This document shows positions 1 to 2,667 of a stretch of 10,057 nucleotides of DNA, piece by piece; positions within the stretch are counted from its first letter, which is position 1, and the number at the start of each line of letters is the position of its first letter. Under the pieces are notes generated by a model. The model searched no databases. It saw nothing but the letters and a program-made list of their open reading frames with translations, and was not told the origin of the DNA. A program made the translations under genes and the position numbers. The stretch is taken from contig JADFJZ010000015.1 of the NCBI GenBank assembly GCA_022565195.1, positions 1-10,057 of the forward strand. The letters are read 5' to 3'. The DNA is from Planctomycetota bacterium. Its GTDB lineage: Bacteria; Planctomycetota; Phycisphaerae; UBA1845; CAIVHJ01.

Positions 1-1422
1 GATGGCCAATACCGACGTTCCCGCAGCCTGCAAAATCTGAGCCCGGGTCAATTCCGTGGTTTCGACGGCAAAGTCCGTATCCCGAATGACCGACTCGCTG
101 GCGGTCAGGTTCTCGAACGTGATCTGCAACTGCCTGATGTTCGTGTCGAGCATGTTGCGCTCGAGCGCGCCCAGGCGGCCTCGCAGGATCGAAATCTGAT
201 CCAAGCCGAGATCGATGATATCCGATGCTTCCCGGAAGGCGCCGTTGACCAGCGATTTGGATCCGCCCGTCACGATTTCTGAGAGGAACCCGGTCAGCGA
301 ATCGCCCAGGCGCGAAGCTGTCACCGACTGGATGCCGATTTGCTCCTGCTGGTTGGGATCGACCTGCGGTCCCAACTGGAACAACGCCCCGCCCCCCACG
401 ATCTCGAACGAAGTGCTGCTCGTCGTTTGCTGGGCGAAGGTCGGGTCAAACGTCAGGTCGATCGTCAAGAGCGTAGTGTTCAAAATGGCCTTCAATCCGT
501 CACCAAGCGTCCGCGTACCGTTGATGAGCGCCTCGACATCCTGGCCGAGGTCACGTCGTACACCGACGTTGCCGTCCGTGTCTTGTAGGAAGTCGACAAA
601 CTCGCCGGCGGTGCTGGAGTCGTTGATGACACTGATGGACACGAACTCGTTGCTGCCGTAGCCGACGCTCTGGAAGATCATTCCACTGGACGCGTTGGTT
701 GCACTGATGGCCACCGCTTGGATGCCCGTGGCGTCGGTGAGGTTGTTGACGGCCTCGATGATCGAAGACGCGGTCTGCCCGCTGTTGAGCGTCAACGATA
801 CCACGCCCTCGCTGCCGGCCAATTCAAGCGTCACGTTACCGGTGGTGATGGACGAGTTGACGAAGCGAAGCTGGGCATGCTCGGCCGACTGCAAGATGCT
901 GACGCTCACGCCGATGCTGGTGTTTCGGCCGAACTTCGCGCGAAATACGCTCACGACGTCGAGCGCGCTGTCTTGGACGCCGCTGGTAATGAAGTCCAGC
1001 GAGCCGTTAATGAGCTTGCGGCCGGCAAAGTTCGTCGTATTGGCGATCCGGGTGATCGATTCCACAGCCGAGTCGATCTGCAACTGGTTGGCCCGAATCT
1101 CTTCGTCACTGAACGCGCCGGAGTTGGCTGCTTCAATGGTCAAGTTACGCACGTCCAGCAGAAGATTCTGTATCTCGGCCAGCGCGCCTTCGCCGGTGGC
1201 GATGACGTTGATGGCCCGTTCAGAGTTCCGGATGGCCTGTGACGCAGCGCTGATTTCGGTTCGCAATCGGGTCGAGACAATCAGCCCGGCAGGGTCGTCC
1301 GCACCTCGATTGATCCGCAGGCCGCTGCTCAACCTTTGCAGCGACTGCTGCAACTGCCGGTTCGTCGCGGCCAATTGCCGTTGTGCCTGAACTGCGGGAA
1401 TGTTTAGGTTGATTCGACTCAT
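1..1422 (-). CDS. fliC: Flagellin, planctomycete type (3' end cut by window edge)
   Basis: Filament subunit, exported by the flagellar type III system and polymerised outside the cell. The frame gives 474 residues from ATG 1422 with no stop before base 1. It ends at ...ILQAAGTSVLAI, so only the last dozen or so residues of the C-terminal D0 helix should be missing. The N-terminal D0/D1 helices (about 1-145) carry RLSSGLRINRGADDPAGL at 30-47 and the NQLQID stretch near 112-117. The C-terminal D1/D0 helices begin near 385 (LGALERNMLDTNIRQLQ at 417-433). The central insert includes a Flagellin_IN-like unit at about 195-240 (TLELAG...SIIEAVNNL). The start is well supported: AAGGAGGA (1429-1436) lies six bases upstream of ATG. 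It follows csrA and fliW, and its leader has two GGA-loop hairpins suggesting CsrA control. The family is certain; the phylum assignment is an inference from sequence resemblance. Confidence 0.95.
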   Translation of the reverse strand, partial: MSRINLNIPAVQAQRQLAATNRQLQQSLQRLSSGLRINRGADDPAGLIVSTRLRTEISAASQAIRNSERAINVIATGEGALAEIQNLLLDVRNLTIEAANSGAFSDEEIRANQLQIDSAVESITRIANTTNFAGRKLINGSLDFITSGVQDSALDVVSVFRAKFGRNTSIGVSVSILQSAEHAQLRFVNSSITTGNVTLELAGSEGVVSLTLNSGQTASSIIEAVNNLTDATGIQAVAISATNASSGMIFQSVGYGSNEFVSISVINDSSTAGEFVDFLQDTDGNVGVRRDLGQDVEALINGTRTLGDGLKAILNTTLLTIDLTFDPTFAQQTTSSTSFEIVGGGALFQLGPQVDPNQQEQIGIQSVTASRLGDSLTGFLSEIVTGGSKSLVNGAFREASDIIDLGLDQISILRGRLGALERNMLDTNIRQLQITFENLTASESVIRDTDFAVETTELTRAQILQAAGTSVLAI

Positions 1423-1424
1423 GA

Positions 1425-1442
1425 TCAGTCCTCCTTGACTGA
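1425..1442 (-). promoter_or_regulatory. fliC SD hairpin, candidate CsrA site (proximal)
   Basis: In the transcript the bases form a perfect 6-bp stem, UCAGUC/GACUGA, closed by the six-base loop AAGGAG. The loop is part of the Shine-Dalgarno sequence, and the stem ends two bases before the fliC ATG. GGA in a hairpin loop that overlaps the SD is the typical CsrA/RsmA repressor target. The site AGUCAAGGAGGA matches 8 of 12 positions of the published consensus RUACARGGAUGU. The structure is seen directly; the CsrA binding is inferred. Confidence 0.6.
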
Positions 1443-1447
1443 GCTGT

Positions 1448-1467
1448 GATCACAGATCCGTGTGATC
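1448..1467 (-). promoter_or_regulatory. fliC leader hairpin, candidate CsrA site (distal)
   Basis: The transcript forms a perfect 7-bp stem, GAUCACA/UGUGAUC, with the six-base loop CGGAUC. GGA is exposed in the loop, and UCACACGGAUCU matches 8 of 12 consensus CsrA positions. It lies five bases upstream of the SD hairpin, and the two GGA motifs are about 25 bases apart, a spacing one CsrA dimer could bridge. On the DNA an overlapping perfect palindrome, CTGTGATCACAG (1444-1455), could also be an operator or compete as an alternative fold. Confidence 0.55.
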
Positions 1468-1581: not shown

Positions 1582-1833
1582 CTAATCCCTTCTGCGTTTG
1601 CTCTTCGCCTGTTCCGGATCGACCACCACGTCGGAAATGTCCTCCGGCTTGATCATTGCCGCCCGGCGGTTTTCCTGTTGGATGGCGTCGTACACTTCCT
1701 TGCGGTGTACGGAGATTTCCTTGGGGGCGTTTATGCCCACGCGTACTTTGTCGCCGCGAATGTCCACGATCGTGATCTCGATGTCATCGCCGATCATGAT
1801 CGTTTCGTCGCGTTGTCGTGATAGCACCAACAT
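1582..1833 (-). CDS. csrA: Carbon storage regulator CsrA (translational regulator)
   Basis: Homodimeric RNA-binding protein that recognises GGA motifs, usually in hairpin loops, and blocks ribosome binding. The product is 83 residues. The frame stays open upstream to 1953, but the family always begins MLVLSR, which is found at ATG 1833. That ATG has AAGGAAGGA (1841-1849) seven bases upstream, so the 40-residue extension is rejected. RNA-contacting residues L4, R6, V42 and R44 (SVHR) are present. It is longer than the 61-residue E. coli protein and has the C-terminal helix and tail ([15 protein letters not shown]) seen in CsrA proteins that are antagonised by FliW. N55, reported as important for FliW binding in Bacillus subtilis, is conserved. 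It sits between fliW and fliC, so flagellin mRNA is its most likely target. Its own SD region is rich in GGA, which hints at autoregulation. Confidence 0.96.
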
Positions 1834-2066
1834 CCTCGGCTCCTTCCTTGGCCATGCGGATGCGCCGGGTCGCAAACATAGGTCCGCGAGATCACAGTGG
1901 CCGTCCCATTTCAACCCGCAGTAAGCGCCGGGAAAACGCCTGCCGAACAACACAGCAATTCCGCTGCCAACTCGTTCAGTCGGTCCGTCTCCGTTCGCTT
2001 CAGGCGGCCGAATCGGGAATCCCGGATCGGTTCTGGCCTGTTCTCTGTATGATCGCCCAGCCTGTG

Positions 2067-2106: not shown

Positions 2107-2559
2107 CTAGGCGCTCTTGCTCGCGACGGCAGAAGGCCGAGGAATCCGCATCAGCGGGTGCCGCGTCGAATATCGTTTGTCGCTCAGCACCAACTGCTTA
2201 GCCTCGCGAGTTTCCACATTTATCACCACCGGACCCTGAAAATTCCCGATCAGCAAATCGTCCACTTTGTTGACAATCACGAATACCTGGGCCCCATCGG
2301 GGTTTTTCAGCCCAATCTGGTCTAGCTCCTCGGTCTTGACCGGAGCCCGGTAATCCGGCACAAACAGCCGCGGATCGCAGACCACAAAAGCCAGATCCGC
2401 CCGGGTGACGGCCTGAAGCCAGTAGAACCCGCTGCCCTCGGCGGTCTGGATCAGGGCGTAATCTTTCTCGTTTGGAAATCCCAGAACTCCGAATTCGAAG
2501 TGGATGAAGCGATTCTCGTCAACTTCGGTGGGTCCAAACCGCGACGTTTCAATCATCAT
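2107..2559 (-). CDS. fliW: Flagellar assembly factor FliW (CsrA antagonist)
   Basis: Cytoplasmic protein that binds flagellin and, when released, binds CsrA and relieves repression of flagellin translation. The product is 150 residues from ATG 2559, matching the usual length. Family hallmarks are FGVLGFPNEKDYALI near 23-37, the FYWLQAVTRADLAFVVCDP stretch at 44-62, VPDYR at 66-70, and the C-terminal GPVVINVETREAKQLVLSDKRY block. Start choice: GAGGAG (2568-2573) is eight bases upstream of ATG 2559. The slightly longer GTG start at 2568 overlaps that SD and is unlikely; ATG 2556 is the other alternative. It is followed by csrA and fliC, so sensor, regulator and target are consecutive. A roughly 330-base gap separates it from flgL, so it may have its own promoter, though I see no convincing one. 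Confidence 0.95.
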   Translation of the reverse strand: MMIETSRFGPTEVDENRFIHFEFGVLGFPNEKDYALIQTAEGSGFYWLQAVTRADLAFVVCDPRLFVPDYRAPVKTEELDQIGLKNPDGAQVFVIVNKVDDLLIGNFQGPVVINVETREAKQLVLSDKRYSTRHPLMRIPRPSAVASKSA

Positions 2560-2667
2560 CGCAGGCACTCCTCATTGTGGTCCGTTTTACAAAGTTGCTG
2601 ATCGCCTGATGCGATCACCCACGGCATCCATGCCATCGGGCGACATTCCTCGTCGGCAACATCAAAG

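Follow-up and report, generated by a model that had tools for sequence, protein, structure and literature searches.

We found that the leader of a planctomycete flagellin gene, fliC, is very likely a translational switch that would be repressed by CsrA and relieved by FliW. The flagellin brake described in a few other bacteria is probably at work in this planctomycete too. The DNA that we analyzed is a stretch of 10,057 nucleotides (hereafter, the window). At the level of sequence, comparison of its fliC leader with those of relatives reveals a site over the Shine-Dalgarno (SD) sequence, the conservation of this site, a sequence rule specific for CsrA, a placement within a fliW-csrA locus, and an association with FliW.

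Results

On the minus strand, the window comprises, in this order, flgH, flgI, a short flgJ-like gene, flgN, flgK, flgL, fliW, csrA, and fliC. The flgJ-like gene has a Rod-binding match under the Pfam cut-off, and flgL was assigned from its position and its flagellin domains. The fliC gene (1..1422, minus strand) begins with the start codon at 1420-1422, is truncated by the window edge, and matches Pfam Flagellin_N (5.8e-30) and Flagellin_C (2.4e-11). The csrA gene (1582..1833, minus strand; Pfam CsrA, 8.8e-26) encodes 83 amino acids with a C-terminal tail. Its PDB matches include chain 5dmb_D, with which it aligns across residues 2-61. The RNA-binding residues L4 and R44 are present in this protein, as in all 73 csrA genes read. 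The fliW gene (2107..2562, minus strand; Pfam FliW, 7.6e-34; PDB matches 2aj7 and 5dmb) encodes 151 amino acids and adjoins the csrA/fliC region. These Pfam matches and the order fliW-csrA-fliC bear out the claim of a preliminary description that csrA and fliW lie directly upstream of fliC. The planctomycete origin proposed there also holds, as the genome is Phycisphaerae-like: the closest relative fetched is L001 (Planctomycetota isolate B14T1B10), with 94.9% identity across 6.6 kb, and the next one (L002), named Phycisphaerae, is 81% identical in FliW. An Rfam search of positions 1000-2900 gave just two matches, each under the gathering score.

The same description had placed two GGA-loop hairpins, of 7 and 6 bp and 5 nt apart, in front of fliC, and both are confirmed on the minus strand. 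The SD-bearing hairpin, UCAGUC[AAGGAG]GACUGA (1425..1442, minus strand, 6 bp), stands just before the fliC ATG at 1422-1420. It contains the conserved decamer UCANGGAGGA, here UCAAGGAGGA (1429..1438, minus strand), in which the CsrA consensus is fused with the SD. The distal hairpin, GAUCACA[CGGAUC]UGUGAUC (1448..1467, minus strand), has 7 bp. The distal GGA lies at 1457-1459 and the SD GGA at 1432-1434, with 22 nt between them; the bridging range taken for a second CsrA site was 10-63 nt. Both hairpins appear in the minimum-free-energy fold of the leader and in its centroid fold; folded alone, they reach -6.7 (SD) and -7.1 (distal) kcal/mol. The 201-nt leader overall is not more stable than its shuffles (z -0.55; 51 of 200 at least as stable). 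Both loops had been described as six-base GGA loops, a wording that omits a distinction between them. The SD loop fits the CsrA hexaloop ANGGAN with a C-G closing pair. The distal loop, closed by A-U, is non-canonical on both counts and reads C[ACGGAUCU]G only if its A-U pair opens. When the 159-nt intergenic region was shuffled 5000 times with its dinucleotides kept, GGA hexaloops closed by at least 7 bp arose 26 times, those closed by at least 6 bp 103 times, and GGA loops 4-9 nt in size closed by at least 7 bp 156 times. A single GGA hairpin of this kind is thus only mildly unusual, and the case depends on cross-genome comparisons.

For these comparisons, 74 loci were fetched through FliW. 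The fliW-csrA-fliC order is present in 68 of them, which together with the window give 69 leaders (39 distinct over the 18-nt element); the six loci omitted had either no downstream flagellin match (L037, L057, L068, and L070) or no csrA match (L072 and L073). The motif UCANGGAGGA precedes fliC with its U, C, and GGAGG in 69/69 leaders and its A in 67/69. Likewise, every leader has GGAG and a C-G closing pair preceded by U. The N at loop position 2 is free (A40 G15 C8 T6). On a tree of FliW, CsrA, and flagellin fragments, N changed 18 times, the A and the next A once each, and the U, the C, and GGAGG never. The U, C, and A are thus fixed beyond a freely changing N although an SD needs none of them, which is the A-N-GGA rule of CsrA. 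Moreover, the pattern [AU]CANGGANG[UA] matches 64 of the 66 fliC starts that met the ORF rule, versus 5 of the 75 remaining GGAGG ORF starts at these loci; these controls are ORFs called mechanically and may include non-genes, and three of the five matches among them are fliW genes. The CsrA-type site over the flagellin SD, as initially proposed, is therefore supported by an A-N-GGA rule kept in 67/69 leaders, and the assignment of the window element as a CsrA site is strongly supported on comparative grounds.

Evidence for the stem itself points the same way at moderate strength. Paired cells amount to 76.9% at the SD-hairpin positions versus at most 58.1% in slid versions of the alignment, and 15 of 500 shuffles, but none of the slid versions, attained the covariation score. 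By contrast with that score, the number of pairs with both sides changed (4/6) is unremarkable, since 194 of 500 shuffles reach it. Hence, the stem conservation and compensatory changes looked for in relatives are moderately favored for the SD hairpin by the score and not by the both-sides count, and covariation of this stem appears moderate. At least 5 contiguous bp form in 49/69 leaders and 1-4 bp in 20/69.

The distal hairpin is more variable within Phycisphaerae. It is identical to that of the window in L001. In L002 the loop is AGGAGUC (7 nt) and in L003 it reads C[AAGGAAUC]G; in both, the stem differs in sequence and has one mismatch (by eye). Nine of the 69 leaders (the window, L001, L022, L045, L047, L048, L049, L067, and L074) carry a GGA-loop hairpin, with a stem of 5 bp or more, 3-6 nt 5' of the SD stem. 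With a stem of at least 6 bp, such hairpins occur within 90 nt in 20/69 leaders versus 4.2 expected. The canonical form within 90 nt is present in only two of the 69 (L062 and L067). In six leaders (L007, L009, L019, L024, L028, and L039), a hairpin with a heptaloop of ANGGAUC or ANGGAUU lies 100-120 nt 5' of the ATG. When whole leaders were scanned for stems of at least 6 bp, control motifs gave 0/68 for TNGGA, 0/68 for GNGGA, and 3 versus 0.57 for CNGGA. A sigma-28 promoter search 5' of fliC gave a mean of 4.51 best mismatches versus 4.54 in shuffles, with L067 as the single good match, and a sigma-70 scan of 1400-2120 was negative; as neither scan revealed a promoter for the window, the distal hairpin may lie outside the transcript. 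Altogether, the double-site switch first suggested for this leader is supported for its SD site and is weaker for its distal site, whose loop is non-canonical and which has a near counterpart in 9/69 leaders. Judged from the sequence, dual-site control in this window is plausible.

Among 294 Planctomycetota genomes searched, 145 have a flagellin match. We read 109 leaders from 74 of these 145, a non-random set of the best-scoring among the matches listed, in which some flagellin copies are unread. The strict SD site is present in 66/109 of these leaders, a count that start codons picked by rule may lower, as some look wrong (L121 and L141). N in the 66 sites is A28 C28 G5 T5, and a U precedes CA in 58. 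Of the 66 leaders with the SD site, 27 have a canonical C[ANGGAN]G hairpin with a stem of at least 4 bp in the preceding 90 nt, versus 0.08 in shuffles; of 42 distinct leaders without the SD site, 2 do. The double canonical site thus occurs in more distant relatives, outside the window's own class. In the alignment, this distal hairpin appears to covary very strongly: its score is 0.623 versus 0.181 in shuffles, reached by 0 of 500, and 48 cells are changed on both sides versus 18.2. Because the alignment was selected for at least 4 pairs, its percentage paired is inflated, whereas its variety of pairs is not. The SD stems of the wider set have just 1-3 bp in 38/66 leaders, so that phylum-wide conservation concerns the sequence rather than the hairpin. 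The CsrA consensus over the SD is thus general, and the 5-8 bp SD stem is mainly a Phycisphaerae feature. Four site-bearing flagellins (L075, L076, L077, and L083) lie outside a fliW-csrA-fliC locus, which a trans-acting regulator would allow. The second downstream flagellin of 11 loci has a GGAGG SD and, by eye, the CsrA site in 0/11.

FliW was found in 59 of these 74 genomes. The strict site is present in 42/59 genomes with FliW versus 2/15 without it (Fisher p 6.6e-5, a value that is too small because the traits are inherited by clades and independence is overstated); for the relaxed A-N-GGA pattern, the counts are 51/59 versus 3/15. These counts per genome include L095, the main flagellin of G006, which is not among the 109 leaders. 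In 17 of the 59 FliW-bearing genomes, none of the flagellin copies read has a strict site. G072 and G101, the two FliW-less genomes in which a strict site is present, have no CsrA match. The other 13 (G032, G056, G077, G095, G113, G145, G160, G175, G189, G224, G235, G246, and G299) have 4-17 csrA copies each and no strict site in the flagellin leaders read, and G129 and G213, which have FliW and 7-8 csrA genes, are also without it. By csrA copies, the strict site is present in 0/15 genomes with at least four versus 44/59 with fewer. Site absence tracks csrA copy number at least as well as it tracks FliW absence, and the relatives with many csrA genes and no site provide a natural contrast. We also observed two loci, L037 (G004) and L057 (G005), that keep fliW and csrA in genomes with no Flagellin_N match; an FlhA match is present in G004 and none in G005.

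Discussion

For the window genome, we predict CsrA binding, repression, antagonism by FliW, and a role for the distal hairpin. CsrA dimers would recognize the UCA-N-GGAGGA hexaloop that holds the SD and, bound over it, would exclude the 30S subunit. The upstream GGA hairpin, 22 nt off, would probably serve as a second foothold for the CsrA dimer. FliW, encoded two genes upstream, would bind CsrA and thereby relieve repression. Such relief would come once flagellin is exported, so that FliW is no longer held by flagellin.

In Campylobacter jejuni, the flaA leader forms two ANGGA hexaloop hairpins 21 nt apart, the second over the ribosome binding site, and the evidence comprises compensatory changes in relatives, CsrA footprints, gel shifts, mutants, and FliW antagonism (PMC4894983). 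The window resembles this leader in its two adjacent GGA hairpins, the second over the ribosome binding site, in their spacing (22 nt between GGAs here, 21 nt there), in the compensatory changes among relatives, and in the presence of csrA and fliW. It differs in its distal loop, CGGAUC and not ANGGAN, in its phylum, in being known from sequence alone, and in the adjacency of fliW, csrA, and fliC. Because the architecture matches the tested flaA leader, we regard the element as a known switch in a new phylum and not as a new mechanism. Bacillus subtilis hag has two CsrA sites, one over the SD, with FliW as antagonist (PMC7652899, PMC6529632). The window shares with hag the CsrA-type site over the SD and the fliW-csrA region, and its own SD site lies in a 6-bp hairpin. 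In Escherichia coli glgC, CsrA is tethered at a hairpin GGA just upstream and bridges to the SD (PMC7652899). A GGA hairpin just upstream of the SD site is likewise present in the window; unlike here, the glgC target is a different gene and E. coli has no FliW. Among 14 control genomes, only B. subtilis and T. maritima match the FliW family. As for the loop rule, both the A and the GGA of an ANGGAN loop are contacted by RsmE (PMC7652899). In the titles and abstract openings of the open-access papers listed, we found no paper on the FliW-CsrA-flagellin circuit in Planctomycetota.

The role of the distal hairpin is where another reading deserves most weight. The SD hairpin alone could be the CsrA site, the distal hairpin being a stabilizing 5' stem or a remnant, and we consider this a serious possibility, though not a probable one. 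A one-site CsrA target is known (PMC7652899). The scarcity of distal GGA-loop hairpins (stem of at least 5 bp), which only 16/69 leaders have within 60 nt 5' of the SD stem, points in that direction, as do the deviation of the window's distal loop from ANGGAN and the distal hairpins without GGA in L010, L018, and L025 and also in L004, L005, L013, and L016 (partly by eye). Against it, L002 and L003 retain GGA in a loop of 7-8 nt on stems of different sequence, and canonical hairpin pairs occur in other Planctomycetota. ANGGA-loop hairpins with stems of at least 6 bp are also enriched over whole leaders, at 10/68 versus 0.53 in shuffles, much more than the control motifs; the window's own hairpin was uncounted and is not among the ten.

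Two further readings have little probability. Positions 1448-1467 form a perfect inverted repeat overlapped by CTGTGATCACAG, a 12-bp palindrome, as would suit a DNA operator for a transcription factor instead of an RNA hairpin. Yet this palindrome is absent from L002 and L003, which keep arms pairing around a GGA loop (by eye), and the half-sites TCACA-N6-TGTGA stand in the reverse order to those of the CRP type; an operator is very improbable. Likewise very improbable is a plain attenuator or thermometer-like hairpin that would hide the SD unaided, without CsrA. The SD stem is stable enough to form at -6.7 kcal/mol, and the SD hairpins of the leaders exceed mononucleotide shuffles in stability (mean z -2.4). 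However, the GGA is unpaired in 63/69 predicted folds, and rRNA pairing does not require the U, C, and A in front of the free N, yet they are fixed. Moreover, the wider leaders whose SD stem has only 1-3 bp (38/66) all keep CANGGANG, and the strict site is missing in 13/15 FliW-less genomes.

The switch repressed by CsrA and relieved by FliW would extend to Planctomycetota the flagellin homeostasis circuit examined in Bacillus, Campylobacter, and Clostridioides. The motif UCANGGAGGA with its free N is a sharp comparative signature that may allow FliW-CsrA control of flagellin to be recognized from sequence alone. There is about an even chance that in Planctomycetota the SD-fused site is locked and the distal foothold freely swapped in place, in both loop and stem, and that lineages in which csrA rose to 4-17 copies lost the flagellin site, mostly along with FliW, with antagonist, target site, and repressor copy number evolving together.

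Other candidate CsrA sites were also seen. Near the start, CANGGANG occurs in only 31/69 csrA leaders and 3/69 fliW leaders, so that we make no claim of autoregulation. The csrA leader (window 1834-1870, minus strand) contains a strongly conserved block, with AAGGAAGGAGCCGAGG before the ATG, in many loci. The fliW start carries ACA/UCA-N-GGAGG in L060 and L063, recorded as Sedimentisphaerales, and in L062, recorded as Phycisphaerae. A search of eight genomes with the site pattern gave 2-11 matches each, versus 0-2 for the reversed pattern, and the 30 of 42 matches that were inspected lie at mixed genes besides flagellins. The motif UCANGGAGGA is found at the SD of a sigma-factor gene, FliA/WhiG-like by its look, in L237 (G007:C264:5156), L235, L236, L247, and L255, and 10 of 30 sigma-factor genes of that look have CANGGANG at most 26 nt from the start. 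In G007, a repeated gene that is transposase-like by its start carries UCAUGGAGGAUAAACCG before the ATG in three copies (L213, L221, and G007:C317:6821).
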